Assembly (NCBI RefSeq): GCF_039614725.1
Contig: NZ_CP154859.1
Span: 2,046,001 to 2,110,000, forward strand
From: Thauera sp. JM12B12
GTDB taxonomy: Bacteria > Pseudomonadota > Gammaproteobacteria > Burkholderiales > Rhodocyclaceae
DNA: 64,000 bases
Direction: 5' to 3'
The position numbers and the translations under genes were made by a program. Under the pieces are notes generated by a model. The model worked only from the letters and a program-made list of their open reading frames with translations, had not been told where the DNA came from and made no database searches. This document shows, in pieces, positions 11,548 through 52,893 of this stretch (position 1 is its first letter; every line of letters starts with the position of its first letter).

Positions 11548-11674
11548 CCCGCGCCAATCAAGGCATTCCGGGCAACGATCACCGGAAAGTTAATGCATTA
11601 TTCATAGCCTCAGCATTTCGCCAATCTTCACCGCAACCGGCAATAACCCAAGGCCGGCAAATGGAGATTGCAAA

Positions 11675-11947: not shown

Positions 11948-11961
11948 GGAGGGCGCAGACC

Positions 11962-35604: not shown

Positions 35605-36383
35605 TGGGTGGCAGCCGCGCGTCAGTGGTCTCCTCGTTCACGATCATCAAGGGCTCCTTGATTGACGAGACCTACACGGTTTTCCGGGGCTGGGACTTCT
35701 CTCAGTCACCAGAGAAGAACCTCGATTTCGTGCGGCGGACGAACTCGGTGGGCGCAAAGAGTGCGAGTTGGCTTGTCGACATCTACAAGGTTCTGCATCG
35801 ACGTTTCGACCCTGAGGGTCGGGATCGGATTCTGGTCGAGCTCGCTCAGCGCGGGTGCCCACTTGAGCTCTGGAAGCCACTGCTCCTCTGGCACATGACA
35901 CGCGATGAATTTCTTCTTCGTGACTTTCTCGTTGAATGGCTCTACGAACGCTTCGCTCAAGGTGTCCTGCGTGTTCGAGCCGACGATCTGTGGCCGTATC
36001 TCCGTGGTCTCCACGAAAAGGGGCTCGTAGCAGAGCCTTGGAAGGAAAGCACGTTGAAGCGGGTGTCCTCAGAGCTGCTTCGCATCGCGGTCGATTTTGG
36101 CCTCATGCGCGGCACGGTGACGCGCGAGTTCGCCTCATACCGCCTTCCCGACGAGTCCTTTCTCTATCTACTTCACGCGATGATCGACTTGCAGCCAAAT
36201 GCAAACCAGGTCGTGCACAGCACGGATTGGCGGATGTTTTTGATGGACGCCGGCGACGTCGAGCGTGAGCTGTTCCGTCTCCATCAGTTTCGCCGCGTTC
36301 ACTACGAGGTCGCCGGTTCGCTTGCGCAGCTCAAGCTGCCATTCAACTCCGTTAGCGACTACGCACGGGAGATGGTTGCATGA
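35604..36383 (+). CDS. brxA: BrxA (DUF1819) BREX protein
   Basis: 259 residues from ATG 35604. SSFTIIKGSLIDETYTVFRG and later RVSSELLRIAVDFGLMRGTV are typical of DUF1819/BrxA, a helical protein with winged-helix folds that binds DNA and is required in several BREX types. Followed by brxB with a 4-base overlap. Confidence 0.85.
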   Translation: MGGSRASVVSSFTIIKGSLIDETYTVFRGWDFSQSPEKNLDFVRRTNSVGAKSASWLVDIYKVLHRRFDPEGRDRILVELAQRGCPLELWKPLLLWHMTRDEFLLRDFLVEWLYERFAQGVLRVRADDLWPYLRGLHEKGLVAEPWKESTLKRVSSELLRIAVDFGLMRGTVTREFASYRLPDESFLYLLHAMIDLQPNANQVVHSTDWRMFLMDAGDVERELFRLHQFRRVHYEVAGSLAQLKLPFNSVSDYAREMVA

Positions 36384-36958
36384 GCGACTGGAAGCAACGC
36401 CTCACGAGGGACCTCGAACCGGTGCTACGCGAAATGGATCCGAGGGCGCGCATCAGCGCGTACCACAACATGCCCTACGCCATCTTCCATTACCCTCCGG
36501 AAGAGGAAATCCCGCTGCGAGCCGAGTTGGCCATGCTCACCACACGCTTGGAACAAATCGGCAAGCGTGTCACGACGATATCGTTGGCTGAATGCTTGGC
36601 GGATGCCCTCGCAGCCGAGGGGCTGACAACGGCGCGCATCGCAAATGCCGAGAAGCGCACCGGCACCGAGAAAATGACGGACACCATCCATAAGGTGATC
36701 AGTGAGCGTCGGCCTCTTGACGATCTGGTTGCGGCCCGGATGCCAAAGGAGGCGGACCCCCTCCGTGACGTCGTGTTCATCGTGCGTGCCGGCTCGCTAT
36801 TTCCGTTTTACCGAACGTCCTCCTTGCTCGAACAGCTCAAGGGGAAGCTAGACGTGCCTGCAGTGCTTTTCTACCCGGGTGAGCTCGACGGGGTGGCTGG
36901 CCTGAAGTTCATGGGCGTGCTGGACGCAGACCATAACTACCGACCGAAGATCTTCTAG
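36380..36958 (+). CDS. brxB: BrxB (DUF1788) BREX protein
   Basis: 192 residues. The pattern PYAIFHYPPEEEIPLRAELA ... VFIVRAGSLFPFYRTSSLLE ... VPAVLFYPGELDG is the DUF1788/BrxB signature. It probably bridges PglZ and other BREX components. ATG 36380 overlaps the brxA stop. brxC follows after 11 bases. Confidence 0.87.
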   Translation: MSDWKQRLTRDLEPVLREMDPRARISAYHNMPYAIFHYPPEEEIPLRAELAMLTTRLEQIGKRVTTISLAECLADALAAEGLTTARIANAEKRTGTEKMTDTIHKVISERRPLDDLVAARMPKEADPLRDVVFIVRAGSLFPFYRTSSLLEQLKGKLDVPAVLFYPGELDGVAGLKFMGVLDADHNYRPKIF

Positions 36959-36969
36959 GAGTGCGATCA

Positions 36970-39900
36970 ATGAGCAACACGCAAATCAAGGAGCTCTTTG
37001 CCGGCGACATCTACCGTCGCATTGAGGAAGTCATCAAGGTCGACCAGACCGATGAAGCCATCCTGCATGAAGAACTCGGCGAGTATGTACTGACGGACGC
37101 TATCCGTAGCCACTACAAGAACATCCTCCGCAGCTACTGGGAGACGCCCAACAAGCCCCACGAGGGCATCGCTATCTGGGTCTCTGGTTTCTTCGGGTCA
37201 GGTAAGTCAAGCTTCGCAAAAATGCTTGGGCTTGCACTCCAGAACCGCCAAGTGCTGGGTGAAGCAGCGTCCGAGATCTTCGCGGGTCGTTCTGGCGACA
37301 CTGAGCTCACAGTGCTGTTGAAGCAGATCACGGAGCACATCCCCACCGATGCCGTCATTTTCGACGTATCGACCGACCGTGGTATCAAGAGTGGGAACCA
37401 GACGCTCACCGAAATCATGTACCGGCTCTTCCTCAAGAGCCTTGGCTACGCAGAAGATCTGGATCTTGCCGAGCTTGAGATCACGCTCGAGCAGAAGGGT
37501 GAACTGGAGCGGTACGAGACAACGTATCGGGAGATGTTCGAGCAGGATTGGAACGCCAACAAGGACCTGATCGCCTTTTCGCTCGGTGAGGCGAGCGCAG
37601 TCATGCATCAGCTTTTTCCGAACCGTTACCAGACTCAGGATTCCTGGGTCCAGGGTGTTCAGGATCGCGCTGACATCACCGCGGGCCGGCTGGCAGAACG
37701 CTGCAAGGATCTGATGGGGCGCCGCCGTCCGCAGCGGAACTTGATATTCGTTATCGACGAGGTCGGCCAGTTTGTCGCGCGTGACGTTCAGAAGATGCTC
37801 GATCTTCAGGCGGCTGTGCAGAGCTTGGGTCGGGTTGGTCGCGGCAAGATCTGGATCGTCGTTACCTCGCAGGAGAAGCTGACGGAGCTGGTCGGCGGCC
37901 TAGACGACAAACGGGTAGAACTCGCCCGCCTGATGGATCGGTTCCCACTACAGGTTCATCTCGAGCCTTCCGACATCTCCGAAGTCACGAGCAAACGCGT
38001 CCTTGCCAAGAACGCCGCGGCGCTCGACGTCTTGCGCGAGCTGTATAGCAGGCACAGTGGCCGTGTGGCGGCAAACACGCGCCTTACGGCGGACATTCAA
38101 CTCCCGGAGCTCACTACCGAGCGTTTCCAGGACCTCTACCCGCTGCTTCCTTATCAGATCGACTTGATCATCCAGGTCGTCTCTGGGCTGCGCACGCAAG
38201 GTGGAGCGACCAAGCACGTAGGTGGTGCGAATCGCACCATCATCAAGCTTGCGCAGCAGCTACTGATCCATGAGGGCGTGAAGCTCGCCGAGCAACCGGT
38301 CGGTAAGCTGGCGACAATCGACCAGATCTACGTTCTTATCGCAAGCAACATCCCCAGCGAGATCCGCGGGAAGATTGCCGCGATTCAGACCGAGGTCCCA
38401 CATCCGTTTGCCCAGCCCGTGGCGAAGGCGATCTGCCTGCTTCAGTACGTCAAGAGCATCCACCGCACGGCCGAGAACATTGCCTCTGCGTTGCATCCTG
38501 CGGTCGATGGCGACTCGGTGCTGCCCGAGGTCAAGGAGGCGCTGCGGCAACTCGTCGACGCACACAAGGTGCGTGTCACCGATGGCCAGTACCGAATCCC
38601 GACCCCCGCTGAAGACGACTGGGAGGTCACGCGCGCCAGTTTTCAACCCAAGCCCGGTGACGTCCACCGTATCCACGCAGACGCAGTCACAACCTTCTGG
38701 GAGCCCAGGCCGTCACATAACCTGCAGGATGCCCGCACCTTCAAGGGCGGGCTGACCTTCAATGGCAGGTCAGTCTTGGATGAGGACATCGCGTTTCACG
38801 TTGCGTTTGCCGAACGTGGGACCGAGCTTGAGCGGCAGGCTGGCGAAGCACGCGCCCGCTCCCAAGTGGAGCGCAAGGCGGTGTTCTGGGTCGCTGGCCT
38901 CGATGAACACATCGATCGAGAGACGGTTGAGGTTTTCCGATCGCGTGAGATCCTCGCGCGCAAGGAGCGTGCGGCAAAGACAAAGGACGAAACGTCGCTC
39001 GTAGCTGACGAGAAACTGCGTCTTCGAACACACGAGTCCGAGCTGCGCCGCCTGCTTCGCGAGGCCCTCCTTGGCGGCTCCGTCTTCTTCCAAGGCAACG
39101 ACCGTAGTCCGAGCGATTCAGCGACCACAGTGAGCCAGGCTGCGAGCCGGGTGCTCGGTCAAGTGCTGCCGGACGTCTATGAGCGCTTTGGCGAAGGCGC
39201 CGCACGGGTCACGACGAAGGATCTCGACACCCTGATGACGAATGAGAACCTCAGGGGGCTCACGCCAGTCTTCGGGCAGTTGAACCTGGTGCGCGACGAG
39301 AAGGGCCAGACCGTCTTCAACACAGAAACCGGCGTGCTGAAGGAGGTGATGGACCGGATCGAGAACAAGACGAGTTACGGCGAAACGGCGACGGGTCGCT
39401 ACCTGGCTGACGAGTTCGAGAAGGAACCTTTTGGCTGGAACCTCGACGTGGTTCGCCTCTTCGTTGTTGCACTGGTTCGCGCCGGCAAGGTCAAGGCGAC
39501 AAGCAAGGGCACGACCATCGACTCTGCCCTCTCTGTCGAGGCGCGCAACACCTTTTCGAGCAACAACCTCTTCCGAGCATGTTCGTTCCAGAAGCGCGTC
39601 TCCGGCACCGACATCAACGACTGGCTCGAAGCTGAGGCTGCCTACCGAGAGGTGTTCGGCAAGCAGCTACCGGAGCTCCAGGCGAGCGTAATCGCCGATG
39701 CAATCCGTAGGGAGGTTGGCGAGGCTGAGGAGAAGCTTCATGAAGTCCACTCCACGTTGCTGAGCCATGCGCTACCCGGCGCCACCGTGCTCCAGGAAGC
39801 CATTGACCAGATGCGGGCCATCCGTGGGGGAAATGAGGATGATGCCATCCTCAGTTTCAACGGGGCGCACAAGGGTCTGAAGGAGGCTGTGAAGCGCGCG

Positions 39901-40512
39901 AGCGAGCTTTCTGCCGCGCTGACTGAACCGCGACTCCTCGACCTCAGGCGTGCGCGCCAAGCGCTCGATACTCACTGGGCCTTCCTGGATCAGGAAGCCG
40001 ACCTGCCTGATGAGCTTCGGCCGAAGGCTCAGGTACTGGCAGACGTGATGGCGCGGGAAACCTTCTACCGCGATCTCGCGCAAATCGATCAGTTCGCAAC
40101 GGCCATTGAGTCCGAGTACGCGGCTCGCTTCGAGGCAGCGGTTGTCGCGCGCACTGAGTGCTACCAGCAGGCGCTGGGGACACTGCACGGCAACCCCGCC
40201 TGGACCGAGCTGAACGAGGAGCAGCAGGCACGCGTCTCCGCTCCGATCGCAAGCCGAGCATCGGCAACCGTGCCCGCGTCGGCGACTATCCCATTCCTCC
40301 GTTCTGAGCTGAGCGCATGCCCGCAGCACCTGAAAACCGCACTTCAGCAGATGATGGAGCTCATCGAGGGCAATTGCCTCGTCACCATCAACGTGGGGGA
40401 CTTCTTCTCCGGGCGTGTCGAGACTCCGGAACAACTCGAAGCGGCTATCGTCGCCCTTCGCCAGCGCATCGAGAAGTTGCTCGGCGAAGGCAAGAAGGTC
40501 TGGATTCAGTAG
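36970..40512 (+). CDS. brxC: BrxC, BREX ATPase
   Basis: 1180 residues from ATG 36970, preceded by AGGAG at 36957-36961. Walker A is GFFGSGKS (residues 73-80) in the typical context IAIWVSGFFGSGKSSFAKML. Walker B is NLIFVIDEVGQFVA. The rest is long and helical, matching the usual BrxC/PglY size near 1200 residues. It is an AAA+/ORC-like ATPase required for both methylation and phage exclusion. A stop-to-start gap of 9 bases leads to pglX. Confidence 0.93.
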   Translation: MSNTQIKELFAGDIYRRIEEVIKVDQTDEAILHEELGEYVLTDAIRSHYKNILRSYWETPNKPHEGIAIWVSGFFGSGKSSFAKMLGLALQNRQVLGEAASEIFAGRSGDTELTVLLKQITEHIPTDAVIFDVSTDRGIKSGNQTLTEIMYRLFLKSLGYAEDLDLAELEITLEQKGELERYETTYREMFEQDWNANKDLIAFSLGEASAVMHQLFPNRYQTQDSWVQGVQDRADITAGRLAERCKDLMGRRRPQRNLIFVIDEVGQFVARDVQKMLDLQAAVQSLGRVGRGKIWIVVTSQEKLTELVGGLDDKRVELARLMDRFPLQVHLEPSDISEVTSKRVLAKNAAALDVLRELYSRHSGRVAANTRLTADIQLPELTTERFQDLYPLLPYQIDLIIQVVSGLRTQGGATKHVGGANRTIIKLAQQLLIHEGVKLAEQPVGKLATIDQIYVLIASNIPSEIRGKIAAIQTEVPHPFAQPVAKAICLLQYVKSIHRTAENIASALHPAVDGDSVLPEVKEALRQLVDAHKVRVTDGQYRIPTPAEDDWEVTRASFQPKPGDVHRIHADAVTTFWEPRPSHNLQDARTFKGGLTFNGRSVLDEDIAFHVAFAERGTELERQAGEARARSQVERKAVFWVAGLDEHIDRETVEVFRSREILARKERAAKTKDETSLVADEKLRLRTHESELRRLLREALLGGSVFFQGNDRSPSDSATTVSQAASRVLGQVLPDVYERFGEGAARVTTKDLDTLMTNENLRGLTPVFGQLNLVRDEKGQTVFNTETGVLKEVMDRIENKTSYGETATGRYLADEFEKEPFGWNLDVVRLFVVALVRAGKVKATSKGTTIDSALSVEARNTFSSNNLFRACSFQKRVSGTDINDWLEAEAAYREVFGKQLPELQASVIADAIRREVGEAEEKLHEVHSTLLSHALPGATVLQEAIDQMRAIRGGNEDDAILSFNGAHKGLKEAVKRASELSAALTEPRLLDLRRARQALDTHWAFLDQEADLPDELRPKAQVLADVMARETFYRDLAQIDQFATAIESEYAARFEAAVVARTECYQQALGTLHGNPAWTELNEEQQARVSAPIASRASATVPASATIPFLRSELSACPQHLKTALQQMMELIEGNCLVTINVGDFFSGRVETPEQLEAAIVALRQRIEKLLGEGKKVWIQ

Positions 40513-40521
40513 GAGCATCAC

Positions 40522-42468
40522 GTGGAGAAGGAGACACGACAGAAACTGGAGCGCCTCACCCAGCAAGCACGACGGCTTCTCGAGGAGGAGTTTCGGGAGC
40601 AGTTGGAGGGGCGCTACGACATCCTGCTGGACGGGAGGATCCCGCTCGCCCCTGGGGCGCACCTGCCTCCTCGGGAGCGCGTGATCTGGGACAAGCTTGT
40701 GGCCGCCGTCGCTCACAAGCGCTCGCTGGGCATCACGTCTGCGGGTGCTGTCGCAGCCTACCTGCGCGAGGCAGCCTTCCATACGCTCAATCGCTTCGTC
40801 GCCTTGAAGATGCTCGAGGCGCGCAAACTTGTGCAGGAGTGCATCTCGCGGGGTGAAGACTCGGCCGGCTTCAAGGAGTACATCGCCCTCGCGCCCGGGC
40901 TCGTGACGCTGCCCGACAAGGGCTACCGGATTTACGTTGAAACGATTTTCGACGAGATCGCGCAGGAAGTGCGTGCGCTTTTCGATCGGCGTGACGCTGC
41001 GACCATTCTCTGGCCACGACGCCAGGCGCTGCACGATCTTCTGGCTGCCCTGAACGACCCCGAGATCGCTTCCGTATGGATTGAGGACGAAACCATCGGC
41101 TGGGTCTACCAGTACTTCAACGGGGAGGACGAGCGGCGCCAGATGCGTGCGGAAAGCCAGGCACCGCGCAATAGCCGCGAACTGGCCGTTCGCAATCAGT
41201 TCTTTACGCCACGGTACGTCGTACAGTTTCTAACTGACAACTCCCTTGGCCGAACCTGGTGCGAGATGCGTGGCGCCAATACGCAACTCACCCACCTCGA
41301 CTACCTGGTGAAGTCCGAGGAGGGTTTCGAGGGACGCGCTTCGAAGGATCCACGCGACATGCGCGTGCTCGATCCCGCCTGCGGCTCCGGTCACTTCCTT
41401 CTTTACGCGTTTGACTTGCTTGCCGGCGATCCGACGCGCAGCTTCTTCGGCATCTACGAGGAAGCGTGGCGCACTGAGGGTGCACCCAAGTCCGAGGTCA
41501 CCGGCCGGACGCTCCGCGAAGACTACGAGTCCGAGTCAGCCTTGCACCGCGCAGTGCCCGAACTGATTCTCCGTCACAACCTCTACGGCATCGATATCGA
41601 CCCGCGCGCTGCGCAGATCGCAGCCCTCGCACTATGGATGCGCGCCCAGCGCGCATACAACGACCGCAAGGTCCAGGCCCAAGAGCGTCCGATCATTGGG
41701 CGAACGAATATCGTCGTCGCGGAGCCGATGCCGGGCGATCGAAGCATGGTGGCCGAGTTTGCCGCGACACTGCGACCGAACGTGCTCGGGGAGCTCTTCC
41801 AGCGCATGGTCGACGAGATGCAACTTGCGGGTGAGCTTGGCTCCTTGCTCAAGATTGACCGCGCCATCAGGAGCGCGGTCGCCAAGGCCCGTCAGCAATT
41901 TGTTCAGGCACAGCGTGCGCCACAGGACAGTCTCCCTGGCTTCGAGCGTCCTCCCAGTCATCAGTTGGAGTTCGATCTATCGGGCATCTCGGACGAGTCC
42001 TTCTTCGACTCGGCTGAGGAACGCATCATCGAGGCACTTCAGGAATACGTTGCTGGGGCGCCAACTGCAGTGGGTGTCCGGCGGCAACTCTTCGCCGATG
42101 ATGCCGCGCAGGGCATCGCATTCATTGATTTGTGCCGCAAGCATTTCGACGTCGTGCTGATGAATCCACCTTTCGGTGCAGCGAGCCTGGCAGCGAAGAA
42201 GGAGTTCGAGTCGGCCTATCCGCGCACGAAGAACGACATTTACGCAGCCTTCGTGGAGCGCGGCATCGAACTGCTTCATCCCAATGGTTACCTCGGTGCC
42301 ATCACCTCCCGAACCGGCTTCTTCCTCTCCAGCTTCCAAAAATGGCGGGAAGAGATTCTGCTGAAGGAGGCCCCACCCATCGTTTTTGCCGATCTCGGGC
42401 AAGGCGTCCTTGACAGTGCCATGGTTGAGGTCGCGGCCTACTGCCTTCGCAAGGAAGCAACTGAATGA
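40522..42468 (+). CDS. pglX: PglX N-terminal half: adenine methyltransferase
   Basis: 648 residues, GTG start at 40522 with AGGAG upstream. The SAM-binding motif is DPACGSGHFLLYA (starting residue 284) and the catalytic motif is NPPF (548-551, in VLMNPPFGAAS), so the N6-adenine methyltransferase core is complete. TRTKNDIYAAFVERGIELL-type sequence follows. The chain stops after VEVAAYCLRKEATE, just where an intact PglX would continue into its specificity half. That half is encoded at 45741-48173. The stop overlaps the next start (ATGA), so the split is built into the operon and is not a fresh break. Confidence 0.9.
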   Translation: MEKETRQKLERLTQQARRLLEEEFREQLEGRYDILLDGRIPLAPGAHLPPRERVIWDKLVAAVAHKRSLGITSAGAVAAYLREAAFHTLNRFVALKMLEARKLVQECISRGEDSAGFKEYIALAPGLVTLPDKGYRIYVETIFDEIAQEVRALFDRRDAATILWPRRQALHDLLAALNDPEIASVWIEDETIGWVYQYFNGEDERRQMRAESQAPRNSRELAVRNQFFTPRYVVQFLTDNSLGRTWCEMRGANTQLTHLDYLVKSEEGFEGRASKDPRDMRVLDPACGSGHFLLYAFDLLAGDPTRSFFGIYEEAWRTEGAPKSEVTGRTLREDYESESALHRAVPELILRHNLYGIDIDPRAAQIAALALWMRAQRAYNDRKVQAQERPIIGRTNIVVAEPMPGDRSMVAEFAATLRPNVLGELFQRMVDEMQLAGELGSLLKIDRAIRSAVAKARQQFVQAQRAPQDSLPGFERPPSHQLEFDLSGISDESFFDSAEERIIEALQEYVAGAPTAVGVRRQLFADDAAQGIAFIDLCRKHFDVVLMNPPFGAASLAAKKEFESAYPRTKNDIYAAFVERGIELLHPNGYLGAITSRTGFFLSSFQKWREEILLKEAPPIVFADLGQGVLDSAMVEVAAYCLRKEATE

Positions 42469-42884
42469 GCACCAGCTTCTTGGACGCCTCCGATCGCCAC
42501 TTCCATGACGCTGAATTGCTGCTCGCGCAAGCGCGTGGGGCGAACGCTGACCATCTATTTGGGCTCTCTGCAGAGTGCTCTCTCAAGGCAGTCATGCTTG
42601 CACTGGGCATGGCGGTGAGCCCGGACGGAGCACCGCAGGACAAGGGGCACAGGGTCCACATGCCCGAGCTCTGGGCGGCTTTTCAGAGTTTTGCTGAGGG
42701 TGGCCTTGCGTCGCGATACCTTGAGCCGCTGGAAAAGTCGAATCCCTTTGCCGACTGGTCGATCGATCAACGCTACTGGGCCCGCGATGCGATTACGGCA
42801 TCCGCCATTCCGAGCCACAGGGCTGCAGCAAATCAATGCCGCCTGAGCTTGGAGAAGCTAATCCTTGACGGGGTGACTGCATGA
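42465..42884 (+). CDS. HEPN-like protein, first gene of the nested module
   Basis: 139 residues from ATG 42465. FLDASDRHFHDAELLLAQAR followed by HLFGLSAECSLKAVMLALGM is the helical pattern of HEPN proteins (paired long helices, the second with E-C-x-L-K-A). I cannot see the R-x4-6-H motif of active HEPN RNases with certainty, so it may be a structural or nucleotide-binding member. Coupled at both ends by 4-base overlaps. It lies directly after the methyltransferase half of PglX. Confidence 0.6.
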   Translation: MSTSFLDASDRHFHDAELLLAQARGANADHLFGLSAECSLKAVMLALGMAVSPDGAPQDKGHRVHMPELWAAFQSFAEGGLASRYLEPLEKSNPFADWSIDQRYWARDAITASAIPSHRAAANQCRLSLEKLILDGVTA

Positions 42885-44164
42885 ACTTCAACGACGCCCT
42901 CGAGAAGGCAACGCAGCTCGCGCAAGCACGACTCCCGGACCTCAAGGAACACGTATTTCTTGTCCGCGACCTGCATGGCCGCATTCGGGTTTTGCTGAAG
43001 AAGCGGCGAGACGATAAGTCACCGTTCTATCCACACATTCAAGGTCTCATTACTGATATTGCCCAAGCACTGGGGGCCTACGCATACCCGGCGAACGATT
43101 TGGTCATGTACCGTGAGGACCTCAAGTCGATCCAGTTGCCGGACGATCAGGCATCTGCTGTGCTGGCCGAAAACGCAGGTCACAAGGTTTGTCTTCACGA
43201 CCGACTGCTGATGGGGGCAGAGTGGAGTGCGTCTCCCCCCCTGGGGACCCCTCGCAGCAAGCGCTTCACACTGTTCTCTATGAAGGGGGGCGTGGGGCGC
43301 TCGACGACGGCCACGATCCTTGCTTGGCATCTTGCCAAGAAGGGGAAGCGAGTCCTTGTCTTCGATCTGGACCTTGAATCACCGGGCGTCGGCGCCGCGC
43401 TTCTCGGTGCCGACCTACCTCGCTTTGGCATTGTGGACTGGTTTGTCGAGGATGCGCTTGGTCAGGGCGATGCTGTGCTCGGCGAGATGGTTCGGCAGAG
43501 CACATTGGCTAATGGTCCAGGCACGATCACTGTTGTGCCGGCCTTTGGCTCTGACACCGGGGATTACCTCGCGAAGCTGGGGCGGGCTTACCTCGAGCGC
43601 GGGCCAAACGGTCACGAGCCTTGGCCGAGCCGTCTCAAGCGGTTGGTTGAGGGCATCGAAGGACAGGAGATGCCTGACGTCGTGCTCCTCGATAGCCGCA
43701 CCGGGCTGCACGATACGAGCGCAGCCTTGATTCTCGCGATGGGCGCCGACACGCTGATGTTTGCCGTGGATACGCCGCAGACATGGAGCGCTTATGGGTT
43801 CCTATTCAAACATTGGGCAATCCATCCAGACCGCCGCGCGTTTCGCGAGAAGCTCTGGGTGGTTGGGGCGCAGGTACCCGACACCGGCCGGGACGACTAC
43901 ATCAACGCCTTATCGGACAACGCGTGGGATCTTTTCCGCGACACCCTCTACGACGAGCAAGGTGACGGACTCGACCCCGACATCTTTTACTCGCCTGCGG
44001 ATGATCCATCCGGACGGCACTACCCAAGGACCGTCTTCTGGCAGCGTGCCCTCATGGCCTTTGATCCGCAGAAAGCGTGGGCCGAGAACGATGTGGCGGC
44101 GGCCTACGGGGGATTTCTGGCGTGGTTTGATCGCGTCCTGCTAGAGGAAGAGGAGGCGCCGTGA
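42881..44164 (+). CDS. ParA/MinD-like ATPase with KGGVGR deviant Walker A
   Basis: 427 residues from ATG 42881. About 120 N-terminal residues are unassigned (VFLVRDLHGRIRVLLKKRRD). Then FTLFSMKGGVGRSTTATILA (KGGVGRS at residues 135-141) starts a SIMIBI-class ATPase, with RVLVFDLDLESPGVG and VVLLDSRTGLHDTSAALILA as switch regions. In ParA/MinD the motif is KGGVGK-S/T. Here Arg replaces the second Lys while the signature first Lys is kept. Coupled by overlaps to the HEPN-like gene and to the P-loop gene. Probably a nucleotide-switched partner of that protein. Confidence 0.8.
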   Translation: MNFNDALEKATQLAQARLPDLKEHVFLVRDLHGRIRVLLKKRRDDKSPFYPHIQGLITDIAQALGAYAYPANDLVMYREDLKSIQLPDDQASAVLAENAGHKVCLHDRLLMGAEWSASPPLGTPRSKRFTLFSMKGGVGRSTTATILAWHLAKKGKRVLVFDLDLESPGVGAALLGADLPRFGIVDWFVEDALGQGDAVLGEMVRQSTLANGPGTITVVPAFGSDTGDYLAKLGRAYLERGPNGHEPWPSRLKRLVEGIEGQEMPDVVLLDSRTGLHDTSAALILAMGADTLMFAVDTPQTWSAYGFLFKHWAIHPDRRAFREKLWVVGAQVPDTGRDDYINALSDNAWDLFRDTLYDEQGDGLDPDIFYSPADDPSGRHYPRTVFWQRALMAFDPQKAWAENDVAAAYGGFLAWFDRVLLEEEEAP

Positions 44165-45741
44165 ACACCCGCATGCGCACAACAGATCTCCGCGAGCTGA
44201 TTCGCGATGCCCTTCCGGTAGAAAGCGCCGAGTACGGAGCGCCTCCGCCAAGGCATCAATTCTTCGTGCCAAAAACGCACGCACGGGCGCTCCACATCAA
44301 TATTCCTGTGGTGCTAGGCGATCGCGGTATGGGCAAGAGCTACTGGTGGGCGGCGCTTCAATCCCGCGAGCACCGTGGCCTTTTGGCGCGTCTAGCGCCT
44401 GATGTCCGAATCCGAGAGGAAACACTCGTTTTCCCGGGCTTCGGTAAGACGCGCGATTCCACCCAGTACCCGAGCAAAGACACGTTGACGCCTCTTATTG
44501 ATGCAGGTCAGAAGTCGCGCCTTATCTGGAAGGCGGTTGTCGTTTGGAGCGCAGGACGTTTCGCAGAACAGCACGGGTTCGGTCGAGATGTGGCTGAGGG
44601 GGGCGGAGTGGGATTCGCGGATGGTCGTCAGATTCCACTCGTCAACCTGGTCCTTCCCGGCATCGACGCTTGGGAAGAGCGAGTTGCTTGGACCGTGGCA
44701 AACCCCGAGGCGGCTGATCGCCTGCTGGAGCAATTCGACGCGACCCTGCATGCCATCGATCGTGACTGTATCTGGGTCTTTGACGCCCTGGACTATGCTG
44801 CGGACGACGCTGCCAACTTTTACGTCCTGGTGGAAGGCCTCTGCCAGTTCGCACTCGAGCTTCGATCTTTTAGGCACTTACGTGCCAAAGTCTTCCTGCG
44901 CACGGATCAGTTTGAAGACCCTAGAGTGGGCCGATTCCCCGACGCATCTAAGCTGCGGGCATCGACGGCATCGCTACGCTGGCTAACAACGGAGCTCTAC
45001 GGGCTACTTTGGCAGTTGCTCGGCAACCATCCTCTGCATGGCGCAGAGTACCGTCAGGATCTGTACACCACGCTGTTTGAGCAAAAGCTCAAGGGTCGGG
45101 GCCTGGGCCGGGTAGAGTTAAAGGAGATCCTGAAGCTATCGCAAGCCGCAAACTGGACACTTCCTCCTGAATCGCAGTTCGAACCTGCGATTCAGGAGCG
45201 ACTGTTTCACCGGCTCACCGGGCCCTTCATGGGCGAAAGTGCACGTAGGGGGTTCCCATATCGCTGGCTGCCGATACACCTTGCCGACGCTCGTAACGAC
45301 ATCAGCCCGCGCTCTTTTCTTTCGGCGTTGGCGACGGCAGTGTCACACACGGCAGACCAGCATGCCGATCACGAGTACGCCATTCACTTCCGTAGCCTTC
45401 ATGCGGGTGTCCAAAGAGCGTCTGACATCCGGCTTGAAGAGATCCGTGAGGAGCATCCTTGGGTCGGGCAACTAATGGCCGCGCTCGCGGGGCATGTGGC
45501 CGTGCCGTTCGAGTTCGCCGAGGCAGCTAAGCGATGGGACGACGTAGGAGCGCTCGCTGCTCCCGAAGTCTTCGCAGCTGAGATCGACTCAACCGATAGC
45601 GCTCGAAAGCGCCTTGTGGAACTTGGGATCTGGCGCGAGATGACAACCGGCCGGATCGATGTGCCGGACATCTACCGTCTTGGCTTTAGACTCGCACGCC
45701 GCGGGGGCGTGCCGCTCAAACGCGATGGGGAGGCGCGCTGA
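44161..45741 (+). CDS. P-loop ATPase, third gene of the nested module
   Basis: 526 residues, GTG start at 44161 overlapping the previous stop. Walker A is GDRGMGKS (53-60) and Walker B is CIWVFDALD (203-211). The rest is helical (LVEGLCQFALELRSFRHLRA), and the C-terminus looks like a winged helix (KRLVELGIWREMTTGRIDVP). The layout resembles STAND or AAA+ ATPases with DNA- or protein-binding tails. I do not know the family. It ends with TGATG, leading into the second PglX half. Confidence 0.65.
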   Translation: MNTRMRTTDLRELIRDALPVESAEYGAPPPRHQFFVPKTHARALHINIPVVLGDRGMGKSYWWAALQSREHRGLLARLAPDVRIREETLVFPGFGKTRDSTQYPSKDTLTPLIDAGQKSRLIWKAVVVWSAGRFAEQHGFGRDVAEGGGVGFADGRQIPLVNLVLPGIDAWEERVAWTVANPEAADRLLEQFDATLHAIDRDCIWVFDALDYAADDAANFYVLVEGLCQFALELRSFRHLRAKVFLRTDQFEDPRVGRFPDASKLRASTASLRWLTTELYGLLWQLLGNHPLHGAEYRQDLYTTLFEQKLKGRGLGRVELKEILKLSQAANWTLPPESQFEPAIQERLFHRLTGPFMGESARRGFPYRWLPIHLADARNDISPRSFLSALATAVSHTADQHADHEYAIHFRSLHAGVQRASDIRLEEIREEHPWVGQLMAALAGHVAVPFEFAEAAKRWDDVGALAAPEVFAAEIDSTDSARKRLVELGIWREMTTGRIDVPDIYRLGFRLARRGGVPLKRDGEAR

Positions 45742-48173
45742 TGAAGACGGTGTTCATTCGTGCCATTGAGGCGCCCGTTTCGGAAAAGGCTTCACTTTTG
45801 CGCGAGGCCATTCGTGGTGCGAGCCCAGCTCGATTCGAGGCGTCCATCACGACCTTTGGCCAAATCCCTCGCGCCCCGTTTGCGTACTGGGTAAGCGAAC
45901 GAGTACGACATCTCTTTAGCGACCTGGCCTCGTTTGCTTCAAGCGGGAGAACCGTCAAACAAGGCCTCGCAACTGCCGACGATTTCCGGTTTCTACGCCT
46001 TTGGTCCGAAGTTGATCCTCGTGGTGCGTCGGAGCGATGGTTTGCTTTCGCGAAAGGGGGAAGGCTGTCTCCGTTCTACGCGGATTTGTATTTGGTCGTG
46101 AACTGGGCGCGTAATGGCTTAGAAATCCAGAATAATCTTAACGAACGGGGTGGAGTTCGCTCGAATGTTTGGATGCTCCGAGATACTGCCACAAACTATT
46201 TTCTTCGGCGGGGGCTAACTTATCCAGCCAGACCACACAGTGCAGGTTGGTTTGCTGCGGTGCCAGCCGGATGCCTTTTCGGCCACAACGGCCCAATGGC
46301 GTTCGTTGAGCGTGGCTGCGAGTTGGCTTGGCTCGCGCTGCTCAACTCAAGGGTCTTTCACTTTCTCGTCCAGTTAATGATGTCCAGAGGGCACGCCGGA
46401 TCTGGTCAGACTCTAACGTATGAAGTCGGAATGATCGCAGCTACGCCGATCCCACTTTTGAATCCCGGAGCAGCAAACGAGCTCGCGGAACGCGCCCTGC
46501 GAAGCTGGTCCCTGAAGCGGCGGCTTGATACTAGCAACGAGACTTCTCACGCTTTTCTTCTTCCAGCTCTGCTCCAGGTACACGCCGATCGGCTAACGGC
46601 TCGTGCGCAGGCCTGGGAAGCGGTTACGGCAACCACGCAAGCGGAGTTGGAGAGGCTCGCGGCAGAGATCGACGACCATGCCTACCGCCTCTACGAACTC
46701 TCGGCAGAAGACCGGAAGCGTATCGAGGAAGGATTCGGGGTAAGTACCGAGAACGTAAGGGCAGAGCAGGAGGAAGGTGATGCCAATGATTCCGACGAGG
46801 AGATCGTCGAGCTCGACGCGCTACCAATGCTAATTTCGCTGCTCTCATGGTCGGTAGGCGTGGCGCTTGGTCGGTTCGACGTATGCCTAGCGACAGGAGA
46901 GCGTGCCGCCCCTCCCGAACCCGAGCCGTTCGACCCTCTGCCCGCCTGCGCCCCCGGGATGCTCACTGGCGTCGACGGCTTTCCCCTCAGAGTACATCCG
47001 GAAGGCTACCCGCTGAGTTTCCCAATAGACGGATTTCTTGTTGACGACCCTGGGCACCCGCGTGATCTCGTCGACGCCGTTCGGGCGGTTTTCGAGGCGG
47101 TGTTCGACGACGCCAACGCCCGATGGCACGAGGCCGCCGAGCTGCTCGGTGTCGCGGACCTGCGCACTTGGTATGCCACTCAGTTCTTTGAGCTGCACAT
47201 CAAGCGCTACAGCAAGAGTCGCCGCAAAGCGCCCATCTACTGGCAACTCGCAACTGCGTCGGGTTCTTACTCCGTGTGGATCTATATCCACCGAGCAACC
47301 AGCGACACACTTTTCAGACTTCTCGAAGCCGACGTTCTTGGCGGTAAGCTTGATCACGAGAAGTCGAAGCTCGACAGCCTCACTCAGGAGGCGGGAGCGA
47401 ACCCCTCGGCAGCTGCGCGGCGCGAGATCGAGCTACAGGAGATCTTTGTCGGTGAACTCAGTGCGCTTAGAACTGAGATCGCGCGAGTTGCGCCGCTCTG
47501 GAAGCCGAACCTCGACGATGGGGTCATCCTCAACTTCGCACCACTCTGGCGGTTAGTTCCTCAGAGCAGGAGTTGGCAGGCCGAATGCAAGAAGGCTTGG
47601 GACAAGCTCGTCAGTGGCGAGTACGACTGGGCGCACCTCGCCATGCACTTGTGGCCGGAAAGAGTGGTCCTCAAGTGCATCGACGACCGCAGCCTTGCAA
47701 TTGCCCACGGTCTAGAAGAAGTGTTCTGGCATGAGGACGCGTCCGGCACCTGGCAAAAGCAGCAAGTCGATGAGACTACGGTTCAGAAACTCATCGACGA
47801 GCGGACCTCTGCGACGGTCAAGGCTGCGCTGAAGGACCTGCTGTCTGCCGCGACACCGGCAGTGAGTAAGGGTCGGAAGCCGAAGGCCAAAAGCTCGTCG
47901 CCGCAAAGCGCGGCGCCGAAGTCTGTTCCGACCGCCGCTCGTGCTCCGACTGCGGAGGCGATCGTTGATGAGGCGACCCTCAACGCGGTCAAGGCTGCCA
48001 TCGCCCGCGTTGCCGGAGGCGCCTCAAAAGCCGACGTCCTCACCGCCACCGGTCTATCCGATACGGACTGGAACAAAGCAGTCGCCGTCTTGCTCGACCG
48101 AGGCGATGTCATTCGCAGCGGACAGAAGCGGGGCACGCGCTACCACGTGGGCACGCACGGGGAGGACAGATAG
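45741..48173 (+). CDS. pglX: PglX C-terminal half: target-recognition and accessory region
   Basis: 810 residues from ATG 45741. It begins MKTVFIRAIEAPVSEKASLL and continues FGQIPRAPFAYWVSERVRHL, then LATADDFRFLRLWSEV. In an intact PglX this segment follows the methyltransferase core directly. PVEYFAYWVS-like and NDLYLVVNWARNG-like regions make up the target-recognition part. Residues 270-360 and 600-760 are accessory, and the last 60 residues form a small wHTH (NAVKAAIARVAGGASKADVL). There is no methyltransferase motif of its own. It must associate with the N-terminal half to form a working enzyme. The stop overlaps the pglZ start (TAGTG). Confidence 0.87.
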   Translation: MKTVFIRAIEAPVSEKASLLREAIRGASPARFEASITTFGQIPRAPFAYWVSERVRHLFSDLASFASSGRTVKQGLATADDFRFLRLWSEVDPRGASERWFAFAKGGRLSPFYADLYLVVNWARNGLEIQNNLNERGGVRSNVWMLRDTATNYFLRRGLTYPARPHSAGWFAAVPAGCLFGHNGPMAFVERGCELAWLALLNSRVFHFLVQLMMSRGHAGSGQTLTYEVGMIAATPIPLLNPGAANELAERALRSWSLKRRLDTSNETSHAFLLPALLQVHADRLTARAQAWEAVTATTQAELERLAAEIDDHAYRLYELSAEDRKRIEEGFGVSTENVRAEQEEGDANDSDEEIVELDALPMLISLLSWSVGVALGRFDVCLATGERAAPPEPEPFDPLPACAPGMLTGVDGFPLRVHPEGYPLSFPIDGFLVDDPGHPRDLVDAVRAVFEAVFDDANARWHEAAELLGVADLRTWYATQFFELHIKRYSKSRRKAPIYWQLATASGSYSVWIYIHRATSDTLFRLLEADVLGGKLDHEKSKLDSLTQEAGANPSAAARREIELQEIFVGELSALRTEIARVAPLWKPNLDDGVILNFAPLWRLVPQSRSWQAECKKAWDKLVSGEYDWAHLAMHLWPERVVLKCIDDRSLAIAHGLEEVFWHEDASGTWQKQQVDETTVQKLIDERTSATVKAALKDLLSAATPAVSKGRKPKAKSSSPQSAAPKSVPTAARAPTAEAIVDEATLNAVKAAIARVAGGASKADVLTATGLSDTDWNKAVAVLLDRGDVIRSGQKRGTRYHVGTHGEDR

Positions 48174-50767
48174 TGCACGGTCTCCATCAACAGATCGCGT
48201 CGACGCTCGACCGGCTCCTTCGAGAGCGCAGGATCGTCGTGTTTTACGACCTGCGCGAGGAGTTCCAACTCTTTTTCGAGGAACCTGAGGTCGTGGGTGC
48301 TGGCGTGGGCGATCTCCCACGTGTCCGCATCCTTGATACGTTGGCCTGTTTGGCCCGCTTTGACGGTTCGTTCTTTGCCCTAAAGGCCGCGGTCGAGCCT
48401 ATCCTCGCTGCGCCATTCCCTGAGCCTCTCCTGGTGTACGTTCCCGGCTATGCCAAACAGAAGCTGGGCAAGCTGCGGGCGCCGGCTGGCCCGAATACCG
48501 CGCAGGGTAAAGAGGTTTGGAATGTGCTCTTCGAGCTCGACTGCGCCGGCAGGTCTTACGAGCCCAGCCTGCGGGCGCTCGCACGGAACGAACTGCGGCG
48601 GCGATACACCGATGGCGATATTGACGAGATGCTTGCGCCGACATCGCTGACCTATCAGGACGTCGTGAGATTCTTGGTCGACCAGAGCAGCACTGAGGGC
48701 GGATCCGCATCCCTGGTTAAGCTCGTCCTCGGTAAAGGGTCGAGTGAGGAGCTGATCTGTCGTTGGCTCGCCGATGATGCTTGGGACGCTGATCTCGAGG
48801 CAAAGCAGGCCGTACCGGAATTGCACAGGCTTGTACAGGCCCGCCTTGGCCTCCCGTTATCCGATGCCAGCCTTGTCAAGGCTCGGCACCAGACCCTGCG
48901 CTACGTACTTATCAATGAGTTCCGCGCTGATCTTGCGAGCGAGGCGCCTAGTCAGCTGAATGTGATCCCGACGCCGCCGACGAAGGACGAGGTGCAACGG
49001 GTTCGTGATGTTGCCGAACGCCTTCGCCACGAGTATCCGGATGCTTACACGGAGATCGCTGATGGACTCGAACGCGAGCTCAGCCTCCCTGCGCTAGCGA
49101 TCGATGCTGATGCACTCGGAACGGTCGACACCTTCCGCTTCGAGGAAACGATTTTGCTCGAACATGCGGCGAAGCTGATTGGGGACGCACATTACGAGCG
49201 CGCCCTTGACTTGGTGCTAGCCCGCCGACGCAGTTTTTGGGTGGATCGCAGTCTCGGCAGACTCGGACAGTGGGAAACATGCCGCTTGATGGCCGAGCTG
49301 GGGCGGGCGGTTGCCACTACTCGTCCGCTGCTCAAGAAGGGCAACGGTACCCCGAAAAGCTGGGTCGAAGGCTATGCGAGTGAGTGGTATCGGGCCGACC
49401 TCGCCCAGCGTGCGCTTGAGTCCTGGGTAGCGAAGCTCGAGGACGAGCCTGAGCCTTCGCTCGAAAGAGCACTTGGGCTGGTTCGTCGTAACCATGAGGC
49501 GCTGCTGAAGGAGATGACCCAGGGTTACACGGCTGCGCTGGCCGCAGCCGGGTGGTCAGTTAATGGGGTTCTCCACCAGACCCGCATCTATCCGGAGCTC
49601 GTTGAGCCGATACGCGGCCGGATCGCCTACTTCTTTGTCGACGCGATGCGCTTCGAGATGGCGGCCGACCTGGTCGAGCAGCTCGAAGGGGCTCAGGAGC
49701 TCCGCCTTGTGCCTGCTGTGGGGGCGCTCCCCTCGATCACACCGATCGGCATGGCAGCGCTGCTGCCAGGCGCATCGTCGAGCTTTTCGGTGATCGATCA
49801 CAAAGGAAAGCTGGCTGCCCGGATTGGTGACACGACCATGCCGGGGCTCTCGGAACGGATGAAGTATCTCAAAGCCGTTCGCCCCGAAGCCGTCGACATC
49901 GACCTTGGCGAGCTCCTGCAGAAGTCGACGCGATCGCTAGAGAAGCAACTCGCTGATGCGCCGTTGACCATCGTTCGATCGCAGTCGATTGATGGTCTTG
50001 GTGAGATGGACGGTGGCCTGCTTGCCCGACAGATCATGGACACGATCATCGGCAATCTCGCCCGAGCCGTTCGAAAGCTCGCCCGCACTGGCGTCGAGCA
50101 TTTTGTCATCACCGCAGACCATGGCCATCAGTTCTCGATCCGCAAGGAAGAGGACATGCTGATGGATAAGCCAGGGGGCGATACGGTGGACCAGCACCGG
50201 CGATGCTGGGCCGGCCGCGGTGCGCACACCCCCGCAGCCGCGACCCGTGTGTCTGGTGCGGAGCTCGGTTACGACACTGATCTCGACTTCATCTTCCCTA
50301 AAGGGCTTGCTGTGTTCCGGGCCGGTGGCGATCTGGCGTTCCATCATGGCGGCCCGAGCCTTCAGGAAATGATTGTGCCGGTGGTCACGCTGCGGATGCC
50401 GTCGGCGGGGGCGCCGGAGGCAGCGTCCGGCTCAAAAGTTGCGCTCGAGGGCTACCCCAGTGTGCTCACCAACCGTACGTTCGGTATGCGCGTGCTGGTG
50501 GCTGCAGAGCTCTTCTCTCAAGAGCAAGTGCCCGTTCGTCTCATTCTTCTGGCGGATGGGCTCGAAGTTGGCCGCTGTGGCATGGCATTGGATGCTGAGC
50601 TCGACCGAGCGTCTGGCGTCTTGATGCTGCAGCCCGGTAAGCCAGCAAATGTGGCGATGATGCTCACCCGGGATGAGGTCAACAAGATCCGCATCGTCGC
50701 GCAGGACCCCGCCACCGACGCGGTTCTCGCCCAATCTGCTGACATCGATGTGAAGCTGGGAATGTGA
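48173..50767 (+). CDS. pglZ: PglZ, BREX alkaline-phosphatase-fold protein
   Basis: 864 residues, GTG start at 48173. The PglZ domain lies in the C-terminal half: RIAYFFVDAMRFEMA with metal-ligand Asp490, and VEHFVITADHGHQFSIR with Asp649, His650 and His652. These are alkaline-phosphatase superfamily ligands. The N-terminal half (LLRERRIVVFYDLREEFQLF) is the usual PglZ preface. PglZ is essential in all BREX types and may be a nuclease or phosphodiesterase. brxL follows at once. Confidence 0.92.
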   Translation: MHGLHQQIASTLDRLLRERRIVVFYDLREEFQLFFEEPEVVGAGVGDLPRVRILDTLACLARFDGSFFALKAAVEPILAAPFPEPLLVYVPGYAKQKLGKLRAPAGPNTAQGKEVWNVLFELDCAGRSYEPSLRALARNELRRRYTDGDIDEMLAPTSLTYQDVVRFLVDQSSTEGGSASLVKLVLGKGSSEELICRWLADDAWDADLEAKQAVPELHRLVQARLGLPLSDASLVKARHQTLRYVLINEFRADLASEAPSQLNVIPTPPTKDEVQRVRDVAERLRHEYPDAYTEIADGLERELSLPALAIDADALGTVDTFRFEETILLEHAAKLIGDAHYERALDLVLARRRSFWVDRSLGRLGQWETCRLMAELGRAVATTRPLLKKGNGTPKSWVEGYASEWYRADLAQRALESWVAKLEDEPEPSLERALGLVRRNHEALLKEMTQGYTAALAAAGWSVNGVLHQTRIYPELVEPIRGRIAYFFVDAMRFEMAADLVEQLEGAQELRLVPAVGALPSITPIGMAALLPGASSSFSVIDHKGKLAARIGDTTMPGLSERMKYLKAVRPEAVDIDLGELLQKSTRSLEKQLADAPLTIVRSQSIDGLGEMDGGLLARQIMDTIIGNLARAVRKLARTGVEHFVITADHGHQFSIRKEEDMLMDKPGGDTVDQHRRCWAGRGAHTPAAATRVSGAELGYDTDLDFIFPKGLAVFRAGGDLAFHHGGPSLQEMIVPVVTLRMPSAGAPEAASGSKVALEGYPSVLTNRTFGMRVLVAAELFSQEQVPVRLILLADGLEVGRCGMALDAELDRASGVLMLQPGKPANVAMMLTRDEVNKIRIVAQDPATDAVLAQSADIDVKLGM

Positions 50768-50769
50768 CC

Positions 50770-52812
50770 ATGATGAACGAGACCGTAGCGAGGCGAGACG
50801 ACCTCGACGACAAGGTCAACCGCGTGTTTGCAGGCAAGGTCGTCCGCAAGGATCTTGTCCGCAAGGTGAAGGTCGGCGCCAACGTGCCGGTTTTCGTCCT
50901 CGAGTACCTGTTGGGCAAGTACTGTGCGTCGTCGGACGAGATGGCCATCCAGATGGGGATGCAGGTTGTCATGGATACGCTGTCCGACAACTACATTCGT
51001 CCTGACGAGTCGATGAAAGCCCAGAGCAAGGTGAAGGAGAAGCAGCGCTGGACCTTCCTCGACAAGGTCAAGGTGCGGCTGGTCGACTCCGACTACTGGG
51101 CTGAGCTCTCCCACTTCGACCACAAGTACGTGCATGTTCCCGACCACTATGTCCGGGACTTCGATCGCTTGCTCACCGGCGGCATCTGGGCTCAGGTGGA
51201 CATGCGCTTCGAGTACGACGAGGAGAACCGCGGCAAGTATCCGTTCTGGATCGACAAGTTAACGCCCATTCAGCTCGCCGCTTTTGACCTGGAGGAGTAC
51301 CGCAGGCTGCGCGCCGAGTTCACCACCGACGAGTGGATGGACTTCATCCTTCGCAGTATGGGATACGAGCCCACGGTCATGGAGCGACGGCTCAAGCTCC
51401 TTTTCCTGCTGCGTCTTGCACCGCTTTGTGAACAGAACTACAACCTCGTCGAGCTCGGCCCGCGCGGCACGGGGAAGTCATACGCAGTTCAGGAGCTCTC
51501 GCCGTACTCATCGCTGCTCACGGGCGGAACCACGGTCGCAAACCTCTTCGGGCACATGTCGGGCCGGCAGAAAGGTCTTGTTCAGATCTGGGATGTAGTC
51601 GGCTTCGACGAGGTTGCTGATCTCCAGAAGATGCCGAAAGAGGTCATCACAACGCTCAAGACCTACTGCGAGTCTGGGCGCTACCAACGGGGTCAGGAGG
51701 AAGTTTCCGGCTACGCCAGCATCGCGCTCTTCGGCAACACGCAGCAGCCGATCGACGTCATGGTGCAGACGGGTCACCTCTTCGCGCCGATGCCGGACAT
51801 CATCCGGGACGACATGGCCTTCATCGATCGCCTGCACTTCTACCTTCCGGGCTGGGAAGTGCCGAAGATGCAGAACGACCATTTCACCGATCACTACGGA
51901 TTCGTGGTCGACTATTTGGCAGAGGCGCTGCGCGAGCTCCGCAAGTCGAACTTCACCGAGGTCATCGACCATCACTTTGGTCTCGGGAGCCATCTCAACG
52001 CCCGGGACCGCAAGGCGGTGCGTCGCACGGTGTCGGCGATGATGAAAATCTTGCACCCCCACGGGCAGGTTTCAAAGGAGGACCTCGAGGACATTCTCGC
52101 TTTTGCCATCGAAGGCCGTCGGCGCGTAAAGGAGCAGCTCAAGAAGATGGGCGGCTTCGAATACCACCACACCAGCTTCAGCTACCTGGATAGCGCTACG
52201 GGTGAGGAGCGCTTCGTGGGCGTGCCGGAGCAAGGTGGTCGTGATCTCATCTCCGCCGATCCGTTGCCGCCGGGGACCGTCTACACAGCGTCAGTCAGCA
52301 GTGACGGAACTGTGGGCCTCTATCGCGTGGAGGTGTCGCAGTCTTCAGGCACCGGCAAGCTCAAGCTTGCCGGCGGTGTAAGCGGCACGATGAAGGAGTC
52401 CGTCAGCCGCGCATTCAGCTACCTGCAGGCGAACAAAGTGTCTTTCGGTATTGGCCGGGAGCTCGACACCTCCGACTTCCACGTCGAGGTCATCGACCTA
52501 CTCGGAAATCGAGTGGAGGCCGAGATTGGTGTCGCGTTCTTCGTCGCCGCGTTCAGCATCACCCGCAAAGCGCAGCCACAACCCGGCCTTCTCGTGTTGG
52601 GCGACATGAGCGTCCAGGGCAACATCAAGCCAGTTCGATCGCTGGCCGAACCTCTTCAGGTCGCGATGGACAATGGAGCGAAACGCGCGTTGTTGCCGGT
52701 AGGAAACAAGCGACAGGTGCTGGAGCTCGCTCCGGATGTGTTGGAGCATGTCGACCCGATTTTCTATGGTGATGTGCGACAGGCTGCGTTCAAGGCGCTG
52801 GGGTTGAACTGA
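50770..52812 (+). CDS. brxL: BrxL, AAA+ Lon-like BREX protein
   Basis: 680 residues from ATG 50770. GTG 50764 overlaps the pglZ stop and ATG 50773 is also possible. The N-terminal domain (VFAGKVVRKDLVRKVKVGAN) is followed by an AAA+ core with GPRGTGKS (230-237) and IWDVVGFDEVADLQKMPKEV. The last 200 residues are the Lon-like fold (PGLLVLGDMSVQGNIKPVRS). The DGPSAG box with the Lon catalytic Ser is not visible: GNRVEAEIGVAFFVA stands where it is expected. BrxL is a type 1 (and type 4) component that acts on DNA in phage exclusion. Confidence 0.93.
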   Translation: MMNETVARRDDLDDKVNRVFAGKVVRKDLVRKVKVGANVPVFVLEYLLGKYCASSDEMAIQMGMQVVMDTLSDNYIRPDESMKAQSKVKEKQRWTFLDKVKVRLVDSDYWAELSHFDHKYVHVPDHYVRDFDRLLTGGIWAQVDMRFEYDEENRGKYPFWIDKLTPIQLAAFDLEEYRRLRAEFTTDEWMDFILRSMGYEPTVMERRLKLLFLLRLAPLCEQNYNLVELGPRGTGKSYAVQELSPYSSLLTGGTTVANLFGHMSGRQKGLVQIWDVVGFDEVADLQKMPKEVITTLKTYCESGRYQRGQEEVSGYASIALFGNTQQPIDVMVQTGHLFAPMPDIIRDDMAFIDRLHFYLPGWEVPKMQNDHFTDHYGFVVDYLAEALRELRKSNFTEVIDHHFGLGSHLNARDRKAVRRTVSAMMKILHPHGQVSKEDLEDILAFAIEGRRRVKEQLKKMGGFEYHHTSFSYLDSATGEERFVGVPEQGGRDLISADPLPPGTVYTASVSSDGTVGLYRVEVSQSSGTGKLKLAGGVSGTMKESVSRAFSYLQANKVSFGIGRELDTSDFHVEVIDLLGNRVEAEIGVAFFVAAFSITRKAQPQPGLLVLGDMSVQGNIKPVRSLAEPLQVAMDNGAKRALLPVGNKRQVLELAPDVLEHVDPIFYGDVRQAAFKALGLN

Positions 52813-52893
52813 CGGGTGGACCGAGCGCGCAATAGTTGCCACCCTTCGGCCATCTGATCGAGAACGATGCTGAGTGGAGTCGGGAGATGCTCG

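Follow-up and report, generated by a model that had tools for sequence, protein, structure and literature searches.

The BREX methyltransferase has been described as one protein (BrxX, PMC12839542), and nuclease modules inside BREX loci are widely described in the same paper, whose main text contains none of the terms 'split', 'KGGVGR' and 'MinD'. For Salmonella PglX, passages of PMC11341690 place the hinge at residues 654-659 and state that the N-terminal domain can be expressed alone, while the C-terminal domain cannot. Embedding of one system in the operon of another is already known as such: passages of PMC12255303 describe DarTG2 inside a type I RM locus, and the PDC candidates derive from the guilt-by-embedding approach of Payne et al. 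2024, as described in passages of PMC12988326 and PMC12255303. The candidate system PDC-M28, which we encounter below, was probably itself found in this way. Among the titles listed in our literature searches (20 of 190 and 8 of 8), none concerned a split PglX.

The window, by which we mean the whole stretch of 64,000 nucleotides of Thauera sp. JM12B12 that was analysed, contains a BREX-1 operon at 35604-52812, with all ORFs called on the + strand in the order BrxA-BrxB-BrxC-PglX(N)-A-B-C-PglX(C)-PglZ-BrxL. Family searches recovered the complete gene content of BREX type 1 in order (BrxA, BrxB, BrxC, PglX, PglZ, BrxL). The genes and their order are thus those of BREX type 1, except that PglX here consists of two genes:

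35604..36383, + strand: BrxA (Pfam BrxA, 4.4e-16)
36380..36958, + strand: BrxB (Pfam BrxB, 6.1e-21)
36961..40512, + strand: BrxC (PADLOC PDLC02476, 1704.6 bits; NF033441 above its cutoff)
40522..42468, + strand: N-half of PglX, 648 aa (PADLOC PDLC02526, 912.7 bits, 1-643; PDLC02527, 3-662; Pfam Eco57I, 8.2e-22)
42465..42884, + strand: gene A, 139 aa (PDC-M28A, PADLOC, 5.5e-48; HEPN fold)
42881..44164, + strand: gene B, 427 aa (PDC-M28B, PADLOC PDLC04559, 9.5e-139; NF047398, 176.4 bits)
44161..45741, + strand: gene C, 526 aa (PDC-M28C, PADLOC PDLC04561, 7.6e-150; P-loop protein)
45741..48173, + strand: C-half of PglX, 810 aa (PADLOC PDLC02532, 744.8 bits; PDLC02527, 666-1330)
48173..50767, + strand: PglZ (PADLOC PDLC02559, 875 bits)
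50764..52812, + strand: BrxL (TIGR02653, 968.7 bits, cutoff 628.25)

The earlier note on this DNA had placed three genes between the PglX halves, joined at ATGA, ATGA, GTGA and TGATG, and the junctions read exactly so. It had called the layout designed-looking. We reject the overlaps as a sign of a special design of the trio: seven of the nine junctions from BrxA to BrxL overlap, and overlaps are therefore not specific to the trio. Just 5' of BrxA lies a 194-aa ORF (35020-35604) with no match in Pfam or PADLOC; BrxE occupies that place in a plasmid locus described below (L127). Immediately 3' of BrxL is a gene for a 503-aa alpha/beta hydrolase (LCAT/PGAP1-like; 52867-54378).

Because the two halves together cover the full-length PglX profile PDLC02527 with hardly any position lost, we call the window system a split-PglX variant of BREX-1. 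The definition by gene content does not require a single polypeptide, although the described systems have one; here PglX is found as two ORFs. The N-half comprises the N-terminal region and the methyltransferase domain (PACGSGHF, NPPF), and the C-half comprises the end of the N-terminal domain followed by the target-recognition and C-terminal regions. Residue 644 of the N-half aligns to residue 610 of Salmonella PglX, and residue 38 of the C-half to residue 649. The break thus corresponds to about residues 611-615 (extrapolated across a short unaligned stretch), some 40 residues before the hinge. An insertion at the boundary between the catalytic and specificity parts had been proposed; the gene is indeed split there approximately, but the alignment rejects a break exactly at the hinge, and the final part of the N-terminal domain hence belongs to the C-half as well. 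The failure of the Salmonella C-terminal domain to be expressed alone is consistent with a C-half that needs its partner. As with HsdM and HsdS of type I RM, the catalytic and specificity parts lie on separate genes, although the halves in the window are derived from PglX and the C-half includes the final part of the N-terminal domain.

The split recurs. The nearest relative, of the same genus (L108), has the same layout, and PglX is split at the same place in relatives that are about 43% identical (L109, L111 and L131), which rejects a sequencing error and bears out the earlier view of a real layout rather than a disrupted gene. PADLOC holds profiles that fit each half in size (PDLC02526 with 640 positions and PDLC02532 with 682), and from these sizes it seems probable that sequences with a split PglX went into the making of the library. 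The best 120 of 5006 PglX-N homologues measured 577-678 aa at 69-97% identity, proteins above 1134 aa lying outside the search. Among the best 120 of 3905 PglX-C homologues (proteins above 1417 aa excluded), 109, including the window's own, measured 781-827 aa and nine were shorter pieces; the listed matches also include a stand-alone C-half with an insert (P0279, 977 aa) and a C-half fused to a methyltransferase part (P0359, 1144 aa). We do not conclude from the C-half search that the split is the rule, since the window's halves, if fused, would measure 1458 aa and exceed the 1417 aa limit; the protein searches establish that many halves stand alone, but not that fused forms are rare. A fairer, if small, measure comes from whole-genome searches, which have no protein-size limit.

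These searches, run with the PglX-N profile at an E-value of 1e-60, matched eight different genomes (2/369 genomes of the class, 4/101 relatives, 1/398 of the phylum and 4/399 of the order; the sets overlap and the window's genome is in each). Five carry a split and three an intact PglX, and all three intact genes (G126, L113; G871, L133; G1029, L132) are without the trio. The trio lies between the halves in two of the five split genomes, namely the window's and that of its nearest relative (G001, L108). In G026 (L109), the halves overlap by one base and the trio lies downstream, its gene C falling in a distant clade, while in G005 (L111) and G1049 (L131) the halves are adjacent and the trio is absent. 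L109 and L111 have identical junction letters and are close kin, and hence do not count as independent cases. The split PglX at L131:7737-11527, with its halves adjacent, belongs to a BREX operon that has no trio and comes from the same order as the window.

The trio likewise occurs without the split. The gene-C profile matched 11/369 class genomes, eight of them strongly (E < 1e-100), and 6/101 relatives, four of them strongly; weak matches were left out of the trio count. In another genome of the same genus (G024, L112), the trio sits in a DUF1156-methyltransferase/PLD-helicase system and there is no PglX-N match at E 1e-60, and in L072 it accompanies an intact PglX. The expectation that split and trio always go together did not hold: L111 and L131 have the split without the trio, L127 has other cargo, and L072 has the trio with intact PglX. 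Nor can the trio have caused the split, as nothing lies between the halves in L109, L111 and L131. The earlier suggestion that the making of both halves depends on the module found no support in these data, and nothing in them speaks for or against a trio silenced by PglX assembly. At the level of individual loci, split and trio are separable.

Other genes also occupy the positions around the PglX halves. On plasmid pTHIMO01 of the cultured Thioflavicoccus mobilis (L127), a UvrD-type helicase and a DUF2290 protein lie between the halves; the region L127:5561-13371 also carries a UPF0175/DUF3368 pair 5' of PglZ, and the plasmid is typed as conjugative. In L029, the end of an OLD-TOPRIM gene lies immediately 5' of a separate PglX-C, and the N-half would fall past the contig edge. 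A short broken contig (L012) has gene C and an AAA_21 ATPase between PglX halves; apparent remnants of B and of a second gene-C tail beside this ATPase (L012:2100-6068) suggest a turnover of modules in the slot. The nearest relative, which has the trio too, carries a Septu pair (PtuA, PtuB) between PglX-C and PglZ (L108:4271-6084). In L111 (regions 5588-7701 and 11330-12093), HEC-01A/B lie between PglX-C and PglZ, and what we read as an RHH/PIN-like pair lies between BrxC and PglX-N. With Septu, HEC-01 and helicase/DUF2290 found there too, a location next to pglX characterises these operons and not the trio.

The three genes themselves are not new. The earlier note was aware of no description of the arrangement; as for the trio, PADLOC models A, B and C of the uncharacterised candidate PDC-M28 match it side by side in the order A-B-C. 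PADLOC gives models only, and neither the name PDC-M28 nor the term KGGVGR occurs in the literature searched. The genes and their order are the same as in PDC-M28, while a placement between PglX halves is not described in the parts of the literature examined. As with other embedded defences, such as DarTG2 in type I RM, one system sits inside the operon of another, but here the slot falls within what canonical BREX has as a single gene.

Gene A was rightly called HEPN-like, as a HEPN fold was found. A conserved RX4-6H motif is the hallmark of HEPN RNases. Gene A lacks this canonical motif: the best conserved positions in an alignment of 71 rows (some duplicating the window or L108), namely R11, H12, D15, G33, E37, K41, H65, W98, R103 and Y104, do not form it, and a role of gene A as an RNase is therefore uncertain. 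The readings of gene B as a KGGVGR ATPase and of gene C as a P-loop protein were upheld. Gene B is a KGGVGR-variant ATPase of the ParA/MinD type (176.4 bits to NF047398 against a cutoff of 90), with K, G, G, G and R of the motif invariant and V present in 81 of 84 rows, again with some duplicates of the window or L108. Gene C has invariant G53, G56, G58 and K59 in 32 sequences; it matches no Pfam family at 0.1 and stays below the cutoff for the Sll1717 P-loop ATPase (NF047389, 41.1 of 75 bits). A similarity to SIN3 in a search of PDB sequences was local only (E 0.03-0.05) and is unconvincing. The trio is also distinct from PARIS (AriA ABC ATPase with AriB TOPRIM), as neither B nor C had an AriA match in PADLOC at 0.001.

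To count trios, we used gene C, as the gene-B profile matches all 14 control genomes. All three genes are present at 80 of the 91 gene-C loci, which include two pairs of the same sequence from two sources, and four loci (L030, L050, L051 and L057) have B and C fused in one open frame. At 23 of the 91 loci, the trio lies in or beside a methylation-based operon, with classes assigned by PADLOC on one or two loci each (L086, L115, L120, L051, L068) and by phmmer similarity for the rest. Besides the window, BREX-1 trios occur in L012 (where BREX is indicated by PglX pieces only), L023 (where BrxC and PglX are incomplete), L029, L072, L108 and L109, and in L038 on the opposite strand beside a broken PglX and BrxL. 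In BREX-2, the trio sits beside PglX in L054, L075, L078, L079, L086 and L088 and, in addition to the 23, on a plasmid record (L122), while on a second such record (L126) two small genes separate it from PglX. In the latter, Thiodictyon plasmid pTs417 (L126:2881-7842), the annotation gives the BREX-2 PglX in two pieces; toxin-antitoxin genes are close by, and the trio follows downstream.

Further trios are flanked by a DUF1156 methyltransferase and a PLD helicase (L112, L115, L117) or by the HsdS and HsdM genes of a type I RM operon (L120:7340-16652), and six lie in DISARM loci, directly beside DrmMI in L030 and apart from it in the other five. The remaining 68 of 91 gene-C loci have no assigned context; 31 of these are flanked by 5 kb or more on both sides, and four of the 31 (L014, L024, L064, L089) show weaker helicase or methyltransferase matches nearby. 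A few context-unassigned loci lie near type III RM or HmaA- and DrmD-like helicases, and on the further plasmid records L123, L124 and L125 the trio was found with no partner system detected. One locus collection took in 80 of 238 loci. Of 219 listed flanking proteins, 79, mostly same-strand ones, were picked for a tally, which gave few defence families: no Pfam family occurred in more than four and no PADLOC family in more than two (first 25 families of 129 and 85, respectively), the PADLOC families including type III RM, HmaA, DrmD, ThsB and pAgo models. Occurrence of the trio elsewhere had been named as the mark of an independent nested system, and it is indeed found in other BREX, DISARM, RM and DUF1156 loci, or with none of these detected.

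One part of the gene-C family nonetheless keeps company with split PglX. Comparing the best 120 of 374 gene-C homologues with the best 120 of 5006 PglX-N homologues, 30 of the 120 gene-C proteins were linked to PglX-N by exactly equal longest-contig size, which indicates co-location and not gene order. A shift control gave no matches at nine of ten offsets and one at the tenth. Among the matches listed, 28 of 63 on contigs of at least 8 kb were linked (28/55 at 45% identity or above, 0/8 below), and with PglX-C added, 41 of the 95 listed gene-C homologues at 45% identity or above were linked. Gene C and both halves share 11 contig sizes, and both halves share 18 without a listed gene C. On one contig, the locus tags ABS52_01550 (C) and ABS52_01565 (PglX-N) fit the spacing in the window. 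Indirectly, then, these contig sizes support a linkage of the trio's gene C with a PglX N-half.

We then placed the gene-C proteins in trees. In the first (FastTree; 121 rows, including 23 of the 30 linked proteins and six unlinked ones), all 26 rows labelled with split PglX fall inside one fully supported clade of 30 rows. In the second (72 rows; six long or odd rows dropped and unlabelled rows thinned), the split-PglX label needs two changes; for the four BREX-1 trios that fall outside the split clade, four changes are required. A single insertion for all BREX-1-embedded trios, requiring one clade of all 30 such rows, was rejected (p-AU 5.9e-70). There is one loyal gene-C clade and, besides it, several independent entries into BREX-1.

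A comparison with L108 reveals one further feature. The operon is about 97% identical between the window and this relative (0.92-1.00 in 250-base windows), apart from one tract:

44400..47450 (ends approximate), + strand: diverged tract, in gene C (3' part) and PglX-C (first part), from 250-base windows

Identity here falls to 0.72-0.81 in gene C and 0.50-0.78 in PglX-C. At 47501 it has recovered to 0.96, and a second, smaller dip reaches 0.84 at 48001. From this one pair, the simplest reading is that the tract was replaced by recombination, as if swapped.

How can these observations be explained? We consider it probable, though by no means certain, that the trio (PDC-M28) forms an accessory defence module complete in itself and is cargo of a BREX-1 operon with a stable two-gene PglX. 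All three proteins match PDC-M28A, B and C, and most gene-C loci have the full trio. The split exists without the trio (L111, L131), the slot takes other cargo (L127, L029, L012), the trio accompanies intact PglX (L072), and it has entered BREX-1 independently and occurs in BREX-2, DISARM, DUF1156 and type I RM settings. However, gene A has no RX4-6H and the roles of all parts are predicted; the clade faithful to split PglX is more loyal than a freely moving cargo would have to be; an intact PglX is found in close relatives (three of eight genomes, plus P0359); and with 68 of 91 loci in no assigned context, only 31 of them flanked by 5 kb on both sides and a few near other defence genes, these counts give no firm frequency of stand-alone trios. 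The same loyalty, and the repeated place beside methyltransferase or specificity genes in BREX-1 (window, L012, L023, L029, L072, L108, L109), BREX-2 (six loci and plasmid L122), DUF1156 (three), type I RM (one) and DISARM (L030), would fit a trio that stays silent while both PglX halves are assembled and functional, with a phage inhibitor of PglX freeing the HEPN effector. The working analogy is PrrC/EcoprrI, where a HEPN-type effector is likewise under NTPase control in a modification-restriction operon. In PrrC, one polypeptide combines the nuclease with an ABC ATPase, whereas the trio consists of three separate proteins, with a ParA/MinD-like KGGVGR ATPase (B) and no RX4-6H. We do not accept adjacency to methyltransferase genes as proof, since other cargo (Septu in L108, HEC-01 in L111, helicase/DUF2290 in L127) occupies the same positions; trios are also found where none of the methylation systems looked for was detected, and apart from DrmMI in five of six DISARM loci. 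Such a guarding role is the main rival reading, but clearly the less probable one.

Position between the halves and the loyal clade, together with the joint divergence of the gene C 3' part and the specificity part of PglX-C in two genomes, might instead suggest that the three proteins belong to the BREX modification complex, as subunits or as assembly factors, and are needed to join the PglX halves. This is very improbable, as split PglX occurs without the trio (L111, L131) or with other cargo (L127), and the trio with intact PglX (L072) or with no BREX detected. A disrupted gene or an assembly artefact, which the split itself and the intact close relatives (G126, G871, G1029) might have indicated, is refuted on present data by the shared layout of L108, the same break in the distant L109, L111 and L131, the numerous stand-alone halves of matching size and the near-complete profile coverage, and deserves almost no credence. 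A more far-reaching proposal is a BREX lineage with a two-subunit methyltransferase and one trio clade as its dedicated guard: assembly of the halves would silence the HEPN effector, gene C would co-evolve with a swappable specificity half, and loss or inhibition of PglX would lead to cell arrest. We regard this as unlikely, if worth stating.

Returning to the trio as an accessory module, which we favour, the N-half and C-half would be made as separate proteins and would have to associate into the methyltransferase/specificity factor. The gap between them may be one of several slots around pglX for exchangeable defence modules. Judging from its domain types, the trio would most likely act as a second, abortive defence layer, with gene A as the candidate effector and B and C as putative nucleotide-driven switches that restrain it until phage infection. 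The split is independent of the present cargo and would make the specificity half a separately exchangeable gene, like HsdS. As split and trio each also occur without the other, the overall picture resembles a slot for cargo within a defence operon and not a damaged gene.

The BREX methyltransferase, described as one polypeptide, thus also recurs in a two-gene form. In such a form, exchange of the specificity part by itself is possible in principle, and the break offers a slot for different defence modules. PDC-M28, for its part, gains a concrete setting and testable partners. Should the trio indeed act as a guard of the two-gene enzyme, it would offer a natural setting for testing how BREX senses that it is inhibited.
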